Origin: Synechococcus sp. WH 8101 | Lineage (GTDB): Bacteria; Cyanobacteriota; Cyanobacteriia; PCC-6307; Cyanobiaceae | Direction of reading: 5' to 3' | Length of the DNA: 64,000 nt | Assembly: GCF_004209775.1 (NCBI RefSeq) | Contig: NZ_CP035914.1 | Coordinates: forward strand, 496,001-560,000 | The notes under the pieces: generated by a model | What the model was told of the DNA's origin: nothing | The model's database searches: none | Seen by the model: the letters and a program-made list of their open reading frames with translations, nothing else | Shown: piece after piece, positions 51,813 to 59,253 of the stretch | How the letters are laid out: each line of letters starts with the position of its first letter | How positions within the stretch are numbered: the first letter of the stretch is position 1 | Made by a program: the position numbers and the translations under genes

Positions 51813-51838
51813 ATGCCAGGACCCAGATTTGAACTGGG
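51813..51838. other. attL: duplicated 3' end of tRNA-Phe
   Basis: 26 bp identical to 59180-59205, covering the T arm and acceptor end of tRNA-Phe. The rest of the tRNA is absent here, so this is the displaced copy created by integration. Confidence 0.9.
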
Positions 51839-54673: not shown

Positions 54674-55147
54674 ATTACTGATTCAACTTAGAGGACTATT
54701 TTATATCTTTCTTGCTGATATGTCAAATGTTACGGAATGCTAACACAAAGAGGGATGGTGAGGTATTTTGTATAAATAACAGAGGTAGAGATGATAACCA
54801 CTTAAAGAGTTATCTTTAAGACCCATTAGGGAACTCAAGAATCCTTTGGGTCACCACAAGAATTACACCAGAAAAACAATCAAGAGCAACCTCTTCAATC
54901 ATCAATTAAAATAATCAAGAGTAATCAAATAAAAATCTACTTGAGGAAAACAACAGAAGAATACTCAAGAGAAGCATAGGAAGAAATACTCAATAGAAAA
55001 TCAAAAAGAAATACTCTTCGGTTGTGGTCTTAGGTTTCAGCAACAGAAGAACATCAATTCAACTTAAGATAAAAACTATATAAATAACTACAGATAATCA
55101 ATAGAGATTCTATTGGATTATTCAGTAAACCATATCAAAAGAAACAT
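54674..55147. promoter_or_regulatory. AT-rich control region with recurring TCAAGAG/TCAATAG motifs
   Basis: No credible gene. The motif (A/C)TCAA(G/T)AG occurs at about 54880, 54914, 54963, 54992 and 55097, with a partial match at 54834 and an inverted form (CTTGAGG) at 54941, at irregular intervals of 29-49 bp in the core. CAACAGAAGAA occurs near 54951 and 55041. TATAAATAAC occurs at 54771-54780 and 55079-55088; the second stands 60 bp ahead of the small-gene operon and may be its -10 region. It could be an operator field, a replication origin, or both. Confidence 0.5.
54801..54820. repeat. perfect 8-4-8 inverted repeat
   Basis: CTTAAAGA, GTTA, TCTTTAAG: two perfectly complementary 8-base arms in the AT-rich control region. 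Too AT-rich for a strong terminator; a dimeric repressor site is more plausible, for example for the ribbon-helix-helix proteins encoded downstream. Confidence 0.6.
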
Positions 55148-55321
55148 ATGAATGAAACTCAAGGTAAAACTATTAGCATTTACTTTAGCGATTACGAGAT
55201 TCCTTTATTAAAAAAGTTTGATGAGTTATGTCAACAAACATATTCAACAAAATCTGGATGGGTAAAAAGAAGAATTAGCGAAGAACTACGCCAAAGAAAA
55301 CTACAAGGAGAAAAACTATGA
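55148..55321 (+). CDS. probable ribbon-helix-helix small protein 1
   Basis: A 57-residue product starting MNETQGKTISIYFSDYE. A beta-strand-like stretch (T-I-S-I-Y-F), helix (P-L-L-K-K-F-D-E-L-C), turn and second helix (K-S-G-W-V-K-R-R-I-S-E-E-L-R) match the ribbon-helix-helix plan of CopG/Arc-type repressors. Its TGA overlaps the next ATG (ATGA). The assignment comes from pattern only. It would be the first gene of a four-gene operon and could autoregulate it through the inverted repeat upstream. Confidence 0.65.
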   Translation: MNETQGKTISIYFSDYEIPLLKKFDELCQQTYSTKSGWVKRRISEELRQRKLQGEKL

Positions 55322-55464
55322 AAACATTGAAAATGGATAACCTTACTTATTCAATGCTTGAAGAGTTATCCAAAAAACATAATACCAAGATGGATATGAT
55401 GTTCACAGAAATGATAACCAGAGCATTTATGGAATTCAAGAGAACAGGAAAGAAAGTGTTATGA
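55318..55464 (+). CDS. probable ribbon-helix-helix small protein 2
   Basis: A 48-residue product, M-K-T-L-K-M-D-N-L-T-Y-S-M-L-E-E-L-S-K-K-H, again with a short strand followed by two helices. AAGGAG stands 8 bases ahead of the ATG. It overlaps both neighbours by four bases, which suggests fixed stoichiometry with the first protein. It is too short for any firm family call. Confidence 0.6.
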   Translation: MKTLKMDNLTYSMLEELSKKHNTKMDMMFTEMITRAFMEFKRTGKKVL

Positions 55465-56117
55465 CAAATAATAATAAAAGAAAAAAGACAAAACAAAATA
55501 AGAAAACCTCCACCAATACTGCCACGACAAATACATTCACTGGTGGAGAACAACAACAAGATGATTCCAAGTTGATTTATGTTGGTGGGTTAGTCGGATT
55601 TGATGAATCAGCAGTCAAACCAAAATGGACCTTGAAGCAATTTAGAGAAAAAGCAAAAGATACTTTACTCAACACAAATCGAGATATGCTGTATGAATCT
55701 CCATCATTACCACTCCAAGAGATTCTTCAAGAACTCTTAGAAGAAGAAGTTGAAGAAATCCTCAGCAAAGAATGGGTTTCGTTGCCAGAAACTTTTGAAT
55801 TATTACTGGAAGAGAATACGTTTTACATCTACAGAACCGATACGAATGCTGTTTTGGCACGGGGAGTTCGTGGATTTGAAAATGCCAAGAAGCGTGCCAA
55901 CGAACTCAGGAAGTCAAATAAACTCAAATGGAACCAAGTAAAGTTCAAATCTGAACGACGGAGAAGTGATTTTGGCGTCAGCAATTCTGGCAAAACATAC
56001 ACAGATTCATCTGGCAACCGAACAAAAGTCCAATACGCCAGAAACTACAACCCATCAAAGCGAAGACATTTTCGTGGTGGTATCAATAGTGATGGCACGT
56101 CGTTTGATATTGATTAA
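55461..56117 (+). CDS. unknown protein with basic low-complexity N-terminus
   Basis: A 218-residue protein. Residues 1-35 are Lys/Asn/Thr-rich and probably disordered. An acidic helical stretch (E-I-L-Q-E-L-L-E-E-E-V-E-E-I-L) near residue 85-105 precedes a compact region with F-Y-I-Y-R-T-D-T-N-A-V-L-A-R-G-V. The C-terminal 70 residues are Arg/Ser/Asn-rich, ending in R-N-Y-N-P-S-K-R-R-H-F-R-G-G. Basic ends around a folded core suggest nucleic-acid binding. No family recognised. It overlaps the gene before it by four bases. Confidence 0.65.
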   Translation: MTNNNKRKKTKQNKKTSTNTATTNTFTGGEQQQDDSKLIYVGGLVGFDESAVKPKWTLKQFREKAKDTLLNTNRDMLYESPSLPLQEILQELLEEEVEEILSKEWVSLPETFELLLEENTFYIYRTDTNAVLARGVRGFENAKKRANELRKSNKLKWNQVKFKSERRRSDFGVSNSGKTYTDSSGNRTKVQYARNYNPSKRRHFRGGINSDGTSFDID

Positions 56118-56134
56118 AACAAAGGAGAAAACTA

Positions 56135-56350
56135 ATGACAGTAAATATACGAGAAAGGAATCAACAACTGGTAGATTACTTAATCAAAGAGAGAGACAAA
56201 ATTGAAAAATCATCCGATTTCAGGATTGACCCAGATTTACGAGCAACCTATCAGTTCATCACTGAGAGGATTTCTCAACTCAAAATGGAGCAATTCAAAG
56301 AGAAATACGAGGTTTTTGAGGAGCAACTCAGCAAGGTGTTAAATCTTTGA
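56135..56350 (+). CDS. unknown small helical protein
   Basis: A 71-residue charged protein, mostly helix by composition (R-N-Q-Q-L-V-D-Y-L-I-K-E-R-D-K-I, then I-S-Q-L-K-M-E-Q-F-K-E-K-Y-E-V-F-E-E-Q-L). AAAGGAG lies 8 bases ahead of the ATG, 17 bp after the preceding stop, so it belongs to the same operon. Function unknown. Confidence 0.6.
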   Translation: MTVNIRERNQQLVDYLIKERDKIEKSSDFRIDPDLRATYQFITERISQLKMEQFKEKYEVFEEQLSKVLNL

Positions 56351-56370: not shown

Positions 56371-56544
56371 TTAGCAATCCAACAGTTCCAACAATCTTCC
56401 AGCATCATCAACTAAACGGTGACGCTTTTTTGTTGTCTTGACACGATTCATGGCAACACGATAAGCGTCCACTTGGTTCTGCTTGGTCTGATAGTGATGC
56501 CAGTTACCGTTTTGGTCTTGCCATTCAATGTTGATGCTTGCCAC
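56371..56544 (-). CDS. possible 57-residue unknown protein
   Basis: A frame from a GTG at 56544 encodes M-A-S-I-N-I-E-W-Q-D-Q-N-G-N-W-H-H-Y-Q-T and later R-V-K-T-T-K-K-R-H-R-L-V-D-D-A-G-R-L-L-E-L-L-D. The balanced composition looks like a genuine small protein: a strand-rich start and a basic helical end. No good ribosome-binding site is visible, which lowers confidence. It converges on the preceding operon with a 20-bp gap and could follow the methyltransferase gene as the last gene of its transcript. Confidence 0.45.
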   Translation of the reverse strand: MASINIEWQDQNGNWHHYQTKQNQVDAYRVAMNRVKTTKKRHRLVDDAGRLLELLDC

Positions 56545-56556
56545 ACAGGTATATGC

Positions 56557-57306
56557 TTACAACTTTTTGGCAATATAGAAACCATATCCATAGTATTGAT
56601 GAAAAGTACTGAATAGTTCCATCTCCTTCTCTTCTGAGTCGACGATTTCCCTCGCCATCTCCGAGTGTTCGTTATGTCGTAGGAATTCAGAAAATCTTGA
56701 CCTCATAGGAGCATAGTAGTTCTCCTCCCAGCATTTCTTGGGTAATGGGAAATATCCCATAATGGAAAATCCATTACTCTCCAGGATGCCCATTTTCTCG
56801 CTGGCAGTTGCTATTTCTGGGTATTCCAGATTCCAGTAGTCCTCAAGTTCTTTTGGGCGCTCTTTGGAAAACCAGGTTATCTCGGATACCGCCAGTATTC
56901 CATTGGGTTTTAGAAAGTCACGAAGGTACGAAATACCTTTGCCAAATCCCATATTGTAGATAGAACCCTCTCCCCAGATAACATCAAATTCCTCTTTGGC
57001 AAAAGGCAGGTCTTCCATGGGGCAATTACGAGTTCTTATCTTTGAGTCCAGTCCTTTTTCATTTGATTTATGGATAACTTCCACTAAGAACTCGTCAAAG
57101 ATATCTATTCCCGTAACTTGGCAGTCAAGGCGTGATGCCAGAGCAATAGTGGACGCTCCAGTTCCACAACCAACATCAAGAACATTGAGACTTCCTGCTG
57201 TGTCAAGTCCTGAAAGTTTGATGGCAAGTTCGGTCTCGGAGTCTCCGCCAGGTCCCTGCCTGTAACCTTTTTTATGTAAATCAATAAGTAATTGATAATC
57301 TTCCAT
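56557..57306 (-). CDS. class I SAM-dependent methyltransferase
   Basis: A 249-residue methyltransferase. Motif I, L-N-V-L-D-V-G-C-G-T-G-A-S-T-I-A-L-A, lies near residue 39-56, the acidic ribose-binding G-I-D-I-F-D near residue 72, and motif IV-like F-D-V-I-W-G-E-G-S near residue 108. The C-terminal half is helical with many aromatic residues. The fold covers small-molecule, lipid and protein methylases; no DNA-methylase NPPY or DPPY motif is seen, so a restriction-modification role is unlikely. It is probably cargo of the element. Confidence 0.85.
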   Translation of the reverse strand: MEDYQLLIDLHKKGYRQGPGGDSETELAIKLSGLDTAGSLNVLDVGCGTGASTIALASRLDCQVTGIDIFDEFLVEVIHKSNEKGLDSKIRTRNCPMEDLPFAKEEFDVIWGEGSIYNMGFGKGISYLRDFLKPNGILAVSEITWFSKERPKELEDYWNLEYPEIATASEKMGILESNGFSIMGYFPLPKKCWEENYYAPMRSRFSEFLRHNEHSEMAREIVDSEEKEMELFSTFHQYYGYGFYIAKKL

Positions 57307-57339: not shown

Positions 57340-57585
57340 TTACCCCCACAACTCCAACCCAAGACCCGCCAACGCTGCCGCCCTCCTCAAGCAGGATGAA
57401 GCAGCAACCTCAGCGGCAGGTGCTTGGGACCTGGATTCCAGCGGTTCCGAAGCAACTGCTGAGTAGTGGAGCAGATCGCCATCAGCGGTCGGAATGGTCA
57501 AACGACCAGTGACCACCACAGCACCACCAACCTCTTGAACCGATTGAACCTCCCAGCACCAACCAGGAGCACGGTGGTGGAAGTG
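57340..57585 (-). pseudogene. remnant resembling a phage Rad52-like single-strand annealing protein
   Basis: An open frame without a proper start, bounded upstream by TAG at 57586-57588. It reads G-W-C-W-E-V-Q-S-V-Q-E-V-G-G-A-V-V-V-T-G, then A-A-E-V-A-A-S-S-C-L-R-R-A-A-A-L-A-G-L-G-L-E-L-W-G before TAA. The pattern W-x-E-V, V-V-V-x-G-R-L-T and the A-S-x-L-R-R-A-A-A-x-x-G-L-G-L end resembles Rad52/Erf-type annealing proteins of phages. The N-terminal half is missing or frameshifted, and the stretch is GC-richer than its neighbours. The assignment is by eye and needs a profile search. Confidence 0.4.
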
Positions 57586-57700: not shown

Positions 57701-58063
57701 TTATTGTGCCAGGCAATATCGATTGTGAAATGCTTCTGCCAACGAATCTTTCTCGATGGGTGCCCATTTGCCCTTCCATCGCCGAAGAGAAAGGCGGCAA
57801 TTCACAGCATATTCAATGTTTGCACGCACTTCTCCGCGACTGCTGATTCGATATCCAGAAATTTCTACGATGCTTCCACTGCGAGTTTTTAGTTTTGAAT
57901 AGAAGTCTTTCCCTTGCCCGAAGCGACCTTCATATGAATAACCAGCAGGAATGGACTCGGTTTCTACAGGTCTGGAGAGTTGATGCTGGTGCTTAGCGCA
58001 CCTTGAGACGAAAAAACCACTGGCAATTGCGATACTCGTAATCAAGATATGACCGACTTTCAT
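57701..58063 (-). CDS. hypothetical membrane-anchored or exported protein
   Basis: A 120-residue protein with one hydrophobic N-terminal segment (H-I-L-I-T-S-I-A-I-A-S-G-F-F-V) followed by R-C-A-K, which does not fit a lipobox well. The rest is polar and strand-like, with Cys in V-N-C-R-L and Y-C-L-A. Its ATG overlaps the stop of the upstream membrane protein gene (ATGA). Function unknown. Confidence 0.6.
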   Translation of the reverse strand: MKVGHILITSIAIASGFFVSRCAKHQHQLSRPVETESIPAGYSYEGRFGQGKDFYSKLKTRSGSIVEISGYRISSRGEVRANIEYAVNCRLSLRRWKGKWAPIEKDSLAEAFHNRYCLAQ

Positions 58064-58428
58064 GGCAATCTTGAACCGTCTTTATTTAATTGTATTCGGT
58101 CTTCTCGGTCTTTATCGAGCGAATGCTGAGGTGCCGTGAATCCTACGATAATTCCACCAATGACGAACCAGTTGAGCATTGCCTGAATCCCAATCAGAGT
58201 CAATGCTCCATACAGAACCGCGATAAGCAGGCATTGAGCGAGTAATCCAGAGATAAACTCCCTTGACTTAAAAGTGCCTAAAGTTCTCAGCATCCCAATG
58301 ATAGTTGGAATGCCTAGCATGAACATGCCAAATAAAAACCATAGAATCGCAAAAGCAAGTGCTTGTGCGATTCCATATCTTGCTAGTGCGCGAGAAAAAC
58401 CTAAAACAAGAATCAGGTAACCAACCAT
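58060..58428 (-). CDS. hypothetical polytopic membrane protein
   Basis: A 122-residue protein with about four hydrophobic segments (residues 1-15, 22-45, 62-80 and 83-100) and a charged cytoplasmic-looking tail (D-K-D-R-E-D-R-I-Q-L-N-K-D). Linked by a four-base overlap to the next gene, so the pair probably works together at the membrane. No family recognised. Confidence 0.6.
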   Translation of the reverse strand: MVGYLILVLGFSRALARYGIAQALAFAILWFLFGMFMLGIPTIIGMLRTLGTFKSREFISGLLAQCLLIAVLYGALTLIGIQAMLNWFVIGGIIVGFTAPQHSLDKDREDRIQLNKDGSRLP

Positions 58429-59179: not shown

Positions 59180-59205
59180 ATGCCAGGACCCAGATTTGAA
59201 CTGGG
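59180..59205. other. attR: 3' end of the intact tRNA-Phe
   Basis: 26 bp identical to 51813-51838. The crossover point must lie within this identity block, since the tRNA gene remains functional after insertion. Confidence 0.9.
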
Positions 59206-59253
59206 GACACGGCGATTTTCAGTCGCCTGCTCTACCAACTGAGCTATCCCGGC
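59181..59253 (-). tRNA. tRNA-Phe (GAA)
   Basis: A 73-base cloverleaf on the minus strand: acceptor GCCGGGA pairs with TCCTGGC (one G-T pair), discriminator A. Anticodon loop CTGAAAA gives GAA; the T arm is CCCAGTTCAAATCTGGG. It serves as integration site of the adjacent element. Confidence 0.96.

Follow-up and report, generated by a model that had tools for sequence, protein, structure and literature searches.

Gene content of the operon and its recurrence in related islands

In the window (the whole 64-kb stretch of Synechococcus sp. WH 8101 DNA that was analysed) the genes A57, B48, C218 and D71 form an operon, divergent from which lies the gene for a ZBD protein (Table 1). The four ORFs, the sizes of their products and the two ATGA overlaps, at the A57/B48 and B48/C218 junctions, were exactly as given in an earlier note on this DNA. 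All four start with ATG in the ORF table, and AAGGAGAAAAACT and AAGGAGAAAACTA lie upstream of B48 and D71, respectively. The four ORFs are genuine genes. The overlaps are more than chance, since a four-base overlap between an RHH-like and a B-like gene recurred in other loci, giving nine in all (window, L017, L023, L027, L028, L029, L065, L066 and L075); among these, B of L027 and L029, and also A of L029, were recognised by eye and not by profiles, and the overlaps of L027, L029 and L066 were taken from ORF tables, being absent from the automatic list of A/B gaps (in which L023 was entered with an upstream start). In L071 and L072 A and B are separated by a 6-bp gap, and in the remaining loci with a ZBD gene B was more distant or not found. 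The B/C overlap was present in five loci (window, L023, L024, L027 and L065, with B of L024 assigned by eye).

No homologue of these proteins had been recognised earlier; this no longer holds, as relatives of each of the four occur in islands of related genomes. A57 homologues were found in 7 of 119 relatives and C218 relatives in 9 of 197 related genomes (own genome counted in both cases; only the N half in G034), and a collection of 84,980 species held C218 relatives at 7 loci, with titles naming Vulcanococcus, Synechococcus or Cyanobium. L023, from another genus of the same family, has A57, B48 and the C218 N half in the same order (54%, 39% and 33% identity, respectively, over the matched parts), and this order is also kept in L065, from the same genus. 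None of the four proteins had a convincing match in direct searches of Pfam, PHROGs or NCBIfam (best E 0.009).

Table 1. Features of the island in the window (positions are those of the window)
Feature	Position	Strand	Basis
Left attachment core, 26 bp, copies tRNA-Phe 3' end	51813..51838		Direct repeat; BLAST against empty site L038
Tyrosine-recombinase-like integrase, 463 aa	52013..53404	+	Motifs assigned only by inspection; homologues
Small serine recombinase, 218 aa	53493..54149	+	Pfam Resolvase, 1.6e-24
ZBD protein, 176 aa	54143..54673	-	phrog_47 DNA primase, cyanophage ZBD HMM, family profiles
Sigma-70-like promoter TTGACA-17-TAAAAT, into ZBD gene	54698..54726	-	Consensus match only
TATAAATA, T4-type late-promoter core, distal	54771..54778	+	Motif scan
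Inverted repeat of the earlier note, 8-bp arms, 4-bp spacer	54801..54820		Matched by 16 of 200 shuffles
Four HTCAAGA repeats, possible iterons	54834..54970	+	4 against 0.71 expected, 1 of 200 shuffles; motif picked after looking at the region
TATAAATA, proximal, starts 69 bp ahead of A57 start	55079..55086	+	Motif scan
Inverted repeat CAATAGA-GAT-TCTATTG, possible operator	55099..55115		Repeat search
A57, RHH-like, 57 aa	55148..55321	+	AlphaFold2 model, alignment
B48, RHH-like by sequence pattern, 48 aa	55318..55464	+	Alignment
C218, 218 aa, island-type N half and C domain	55461..56117	+	Homologues, locus comparison
D71, small conserved protein, 71 aa	56135..56350	+	Homologues in L020, L021 and L022
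E57, small ORF recurring in these islands	56371..56544	-	Homologues
SAM methyltransferase, cargo	56557..57306	-	Pfam Methyltransf_25, 6e-16
Cargo ORFs of 120, 122 and 96 aa	57701..58736	-	First two: pair in L021
Right attachment core, at tRNA-Phe 3' end	59180..59205		Direct repeat, empty-site comparison
tRNA-Phe (GAA), intact	59181..59253	-	tRNA call

An integrative island at tRNA-Phe

The operon is part of a 7,367-bp integrative island in the 3' end of tRNA-Phe. The extent of the island follows from the 26-bp repeats at both ends together with a sister genome (G018), in which the flanks (96.7% and 96.3% identical) join at a single copy of the core, at the tRNA-Phe end. One trait of phage satellites, site-specific integration with an empty site in a relative, is thus present. 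The 463-aa integrase had no match in Pfam, PHROG or NCBIfam at E<=1, and its homologues include proteins of L075 (2e-101) and L076 (2e-125), both of which also carry a ZBD ORF.

Several observations were made on the cargo. The methyltransferase matches PADLOC mad2 (2e-19), probably just through the shared SAM-methyltransferase domain. The adjacent ORFs of 120 and 122 aa (57701-58428) share 62-63% identity with a pair in L021, which lies approximately 2-4 kb from the module there and was read as travelling cargo, and E57-type proteins are found in many such islands, either adjoining C or elsewhere. By eye, a 59-aa ORF on the minus strand (57340-57519), itself without a match, resembles the C-terminal end of proteins of approximately 136-139 aa encoded beside the islands L014, L016, L017 and L026; the L026 protein has weak single-strand annealing matches (phrog_3290, 0.0045; SSAP_Sak, 0.006).

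Predicted folds of A57, B48 and C218

The assignment of A57 and B48 as ribbon-helix-helix (RHH) proteins, made earlier from the sequence, is likely but unproven. In its favour, the AlphaFold2 model of A57 (mean pLDDT 88.6) has helices at residues 15-30 and 35-52, in the order of an RHH monomer, preceded by an N-terminal stretch without assigned structure (the strand is unassigned in the monomer), and the family consensus is RHH-like on inspection. Against it, a Foldseek search with the model gave no PDB match, so that the RHH fold of A57 stays a prediction, and Pfam gave no convincing match: its RHH models matched none of the 17 members of the A alignment and one of 13 in the B alignment (RHH_4, E 0.041), which was not the B48 of the window. 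NCBIfam gave a below-threshold NikR match for A57 (E 0.096), PDB searches with the A, B and C profiles returned nothing convincing, and comparison of the A with the B profile gave a probability of 20%.

The C218 model was confident only at residues 119-166, a beta-beta-alpha-beta arrangement. Foldseek matches of this model (best E 0.84) were not adopted, and neither were its VIA matches, of which ribosomal-protein folds were at the top (Z<=3.9) and which included the anti-CRISPR AcrIC9 (Z 3.5) and I-TevI (Z 2.6).

A half-primase related to cyanophage gp61

The ZBD protein can be described as a half-primase, consisting of the zinc ribbon, helicase-docking region and linker of a gp61-type primase, with no catalytic domain. 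Profile comparisons show, at the level of sequence, homology between the ZBD family and the zinc-binding N-terminal part of gp61 of T4-like cyanophages. A profile of ten island ZBDs searched against the PDB matched T4 gp61 at 3e-5, in residues 18-115 only, and hhalign of the island profile with cyanophage and T4 gp61 gave a probability of 98.3% (E 2.3e-14, 98 columns). Out of 366 matches at E<=10 (best E 1e-4) that the ZBD protein of L026 produced against 50,697 phage records, 351 were to phages named Synechococcus (275), Cyanophage (58) or Prochlorococcus (18), and 15 to others; 19 of the best 20 of the 366 were annotated as primase and one as hypothetical. In tblastn searches of 18 loci, the gp61 ZBD of S-RIM14 found the ZBD ORF in 14 (E 4e-14 to 0.008) and missed it in the window, L020, L022 and L030 at E<=1, the ZBD of T4 reached only E 0.04, and the catalytic TOPRIM/RNA-polymerase domain and HIM2 of S-RIM14 and T4 had no match at the ZBD ORFs of the 18 loci. 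The ZBD of the window is itself a weak direct match to phage primase, with an E-value of 3.2e-4 to phrog_47 DNA primase, a sub-threshold Pfam match to the CHC2 zinc finger and no match among phage records at E<=0.1.

The affinity to cyanophages was assessed by scoring with two HMMs, one built from six ZBDs, of which five come from cyanophages and one from a marine virus, and the other from five other T4-like ZBDs; the freshwater cyanophage BUCT-ZZ01, which was placed among the other T4-like phages in the tree, was excluded from the former. The cyanophage HMM scored higher for 23 of 24 island ZBD proteins, the exception being L065 (31.2 against 31.6), and for the window the scores were 18.7 bits (filters off) and 12.4 bits, respectively. 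With default filters, 25 of the 4,430 ORFs of 32 loci were listed by the cyanophage HMM, all of them island ZBD ORFs, and the ZBDs of the window, L020 and L030 were absent from this list. A single origin of the island ZBDs was not adopted; a branch of the tree has the islands on one side, with support of just 50/49. The top score with the cyanophage HMM (88 bits) was that of a ZBD-only ORF at L078:5341-5778, which has Arg at the position of T4 Arg51 (see below), is followed by an RHH-type ORF on its own strand and is perhaps a recent capture.

In T4, gp61 docks on gp41 through HIM1 (Ile74-Lys97), located behind the zinc ribbon, and makes a second contact through HIM2 at its C terminus, while Arg51 holds the 5' triphosphate of the primer (PMC10359460). 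Residues were compared in an alignment of 30 sequences, comprising 18 island proteins (from 18 of 28 ZBD loci) and 12 primases. The four zinc-ribbon cysteines were present in all 18 island proteins, that of the window included, and profile alignments extended through approximately gp61 residue 104, covering a HIM1-homologous segment that aligned in the window and most members, and poorly in L071, L076 and L078. At the Arg51 column, which adjoins an insertion in the island proteins and the reading of which therefore depends on the alignment, Arg was found in all 12 primases and in 2 of the 18 island proteins, the others having Ala (7), Lys (4), Ser (3), Trp (1) or Gly (1). Compared with T4 gp61 as described in PMC10359460, the island proteins thus share the C4 zinc ribbon, HIM1 region and linker, and differ in being without the catalytic domain and HIM2 and in having mostly lost Arg51. 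As the docking part is kept and the parts that make primers are lost, a role as helicase adaptor or decoy is favoured, and we infer that the ZBD protein may act as one of these.

The same pattern would be expected of an anti-phage defence, in which a half-primase decoy would cap gp41 and block lagging-strand priming, A and B would serve only as regulators and the island would move by other means. The viral collections searched hold no trace of the island and the cargo methyltransferase has its mad2 match, as such a function would predict; on the other hand, ZBD, A, B and C had no PADLOC match at E<=0.01 (D71 reached only 0.009), and the recurrent operon together with the TATAAATA boxes described below suggests more than a lone poison. 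We regard a purely defensive island as unlikely, although still worth serious attention.

Distribution and architecture of the module

Among the 28 ZBD loci (one of them a duplicate, L030 being the same as L020, and L019 lying near a contig end), a divergent RHH-like gene was located at most 600 bp from the ZBD gene in 22 (21 of 27 without the duplicate). The C domain lies directly behind the ZBD gene, on the same strand, in 7 of the 28 loci, whereas in the window, L024 and L027 it lies behind the B-like gene instead; in L023 and L065 that position is occupied by a 115-aa C218-like protein without the C domain. C218 accordingly unites two parts found apart in other loci, and this hints that the operon and the ZBD protein may work together.

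Matches to the ZBD profile were found in 21 of 197 relatives (own genome included), all of the same family and in frames of at most 236 aa; this number includes the source loci of the profile and one match of only 27 positions (G077). In 386 genomes across the phylum, ZBD matches were found in 11, nine of them in the same family, and the two from outside were weak (5e-4 and 8e-4) and located in frames of 626-634 aa, and are therefore not ZBD-only ORFs. The C family was found in 6 of the 386 genomes, and these too belong to the same family. Within that family, genome G467 (contigs C2, C11, C35 and C53) has four ZBD matches, and the host genome carries two more ZBD-RHH-B modules, at G000:C1:629095-629301 (L071) and G000:C1:51727-51933 (L072). 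Neither the viral contigs nor the phage records searched yielded a copy of the island module, and a near-identity search of plasmids gave no match; there was thus no sign of transfer in virions.

The region between the ZBD gene and A57

The sequence TATAAATA corresponds to the core of T4-type late promoters, the late promoter of cyanomyovirus S-PM2 being given as NATAAATA (PMC2984593). It occurs exactly twice in the window, both times between the ZBD gene and A57 and on the operon strand, against 0.03 expected, and against 0.05 in shuffles of its AT-rich intergenic sequence (1 of 1,000 as high). Across 19 intergenic regions (14 analysed first and five held out), 11 boxes were counted on the operon strand against 0.62 expected (none of 1,000 shuffles as high) and none on the other strand, counts which are not independent because of near-copies among the regions (L015/L025, 95%; L016/L026, 80%; L071/L072, 96%), de-duplication at 65% leaving three loci. 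Nine of the 19 regions had a box and ten had none; nine of the 11 boxes came from the first 14, and the strand bias held over all 19.

The position of the motif was less constant. TAAATA was found at -20 to -40 in 8 of the first 14 loci and in none of the five held-out intergenics or the five held-out A-gene upstreams. Total TAAATA counts in the held-out set were 3 against 1.75 expected (intergenics) and 1 against 0.73 (A-gene upstreams), and those of the reverse motif TATTTA were 0 against 1.25 and 3 against 0.15, respectively, the last being an enrichment. For comparison, TAAATA at -20 to -40 preceded none of 331 control ORFs of at least 150 aa (none of the 78 with AT-rich upstreams) and, as a raw count, 9 of 51 CDS starts of phage P-SSM2.

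These data bear on whether a phage is involved at all. In an ordinary mobile element, captured ZBD and RHH proteins would act as a regulator or replication accessory together with host proteins, and TATAAATA would be a host -10 element. Sigma-70-like sites were indeed present on the operon strand in 14 of the 19 intergenics, one box (L022) has TTGACA 17 bp ahead of it in the manner of a host promoter, the proximal spacing was absent from the held-out loci, the searches of viral collections gave no sign of transfer in virions, and A and B resemble small regulators. Nevertheless, the operon strand of the window's intergenic region is without a sigma-70-like site, 23 of 24 ZBDs score higher with the cyanophage type than with other T4-like ZBDs, and the helicase bound by HIM1 in T4 is encoded by the phage. 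An element of this kind, independent of phages, is in our judgement improbable, at about the level given to the defensive island.

The same region contains the inverted repeat at which the earlier note had proposed that an RHH heterodimer might exert plasmid-like maintenance or copy control. The repeat exists, but is near chance, since one as good turned up in 16 of 200 shuffled versions of this AT-rich sequence. Although the RHH-like pattern of A and B and the HTCAAGA repeats would suit such a function, the island lies in the chromosome, has an integrase and an intact tRNA site, and gave no plasmid match by near-identity; the proposal therefore gains little and is very unlikely to be correct.

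Two tandem short-loop hairpins (for example, TTGCCGAAGGCAATGTCCGAAGGACATT) were seen by eye between the ZBD and RHH genes in L014, L015, L016, L017, L018, L025, L026 and L028. Their stems are altered yet still pair, and so are seemingly conserved, possibly as an origin or an RNA element.

A possible satellite of T4-like cyanomyoviruses

T4-like cyanophages rank among the chief killers of Synechococcus and Prochlorococcus. The explanation that we prefer, with a probability that we would put only slightly short of even, is that a satellite exploiting T4-like cyanomyoviruses uses the module as its phage-responsive switch; the neighbour derived from a primase and the TATAAATA boxes lend circumstantial support to the helper-phage-responsive switch that had been among the earlier suggestions. 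Under such a scheme the half-primase, perhaps made from the host-type promoter, would dock on the gp41 helicase of the invading phage and steer or occupy its primosome. The late sigma factor of the phage would then turn on or boost the A-B-C-D operon at TATAAATA, A and B would bind, as RHH proteins, to repeats or palindromes between the two transcription units, and C would tie island DNA to the half-primase. Docking on gp41, late-sigma control, regulation by RHH proteins and the adaptor role of C, as well as the choice between satellite and defence, are inferred from sequence comparison and models. Taken together, the data suggest that the island is a built-in parasite of, or a defence against, T4-like cyanophages. 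The wider generalisation, of a family of picocyanobacterial satellites (or anti-phage islands) that specifically target T4-like cyanomyoviruses by means of a catalytically empty half-primase on gp41 and an RHH/adaptor operon fired by the late sigma factor, is tentative and, in this full form, rather doubtful.

If the satellite reading is true, a fair share of host genomes (21 of 197, by ZBD matches) would carry an island that mimics a cyanophage primase, and satellites of cyanomyoviruses would become testable in culture. It would also provide a minimal tool to block or redirect a T4-type primosome.

Relation to known elements

In its site and small serine recombinase, the island fits the description of a mobile element found in marine picocyanobacteria, which carries a novel tyrosine integrase, inserts at tRNA-Phe or tRNA-Cys and often has such a serine recombinase (PMC10187409, preprint). 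Both have the tRNA-Phe site and a variable cargo, both carry a small serine recombinase close to the integrase, and their hosts are related; unlike the island, that element is presented, in the parts of the preprint that deal with it, with no conserved module, phage-primase relative or helper. Its integrases are stated in the same preprint to be distinct from those of tycheposons (Hackl 2023) and VEIMEs (Eppley 2022), islands or elements of marine bacteria proposed to be phage satellites (cited in PMC10803314 and PMC11389934).

Among other satellites, PICMI is similarly small, with few genes and some ATGA overlaps, and the model that defines it calls for AlpA, a fis site and a DUF3987/DUF5906 primase (PMC10803314); Pfam scans of 13 island ORFs revealed neither AlpA nor a DUF3987/DUF5906 primase. 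PLE, a satellite of the lytic phage ICP1, depends on replication proteins of a virulent phage, combining a factor of its own with helper machinery (PMC7145576), and the island would, by our reading, have a comparable dependence. The factors differ, PLE using a RepA_N initiator at iterons (PMC7145576) and the island a primase-derived half-protein, and the island, if indeed a satellite, would answer in one system how a satellite engages the replisome of a lytic helper, a question open for PLE. No printed account of a ZBD-only phage-primase mimic was present among the matches listed from open-licence PMC full text. Provisionally, therefore, the ZBD-only primase mimic appears to be new, set within an island type, and beside phage satellites, that are already known.
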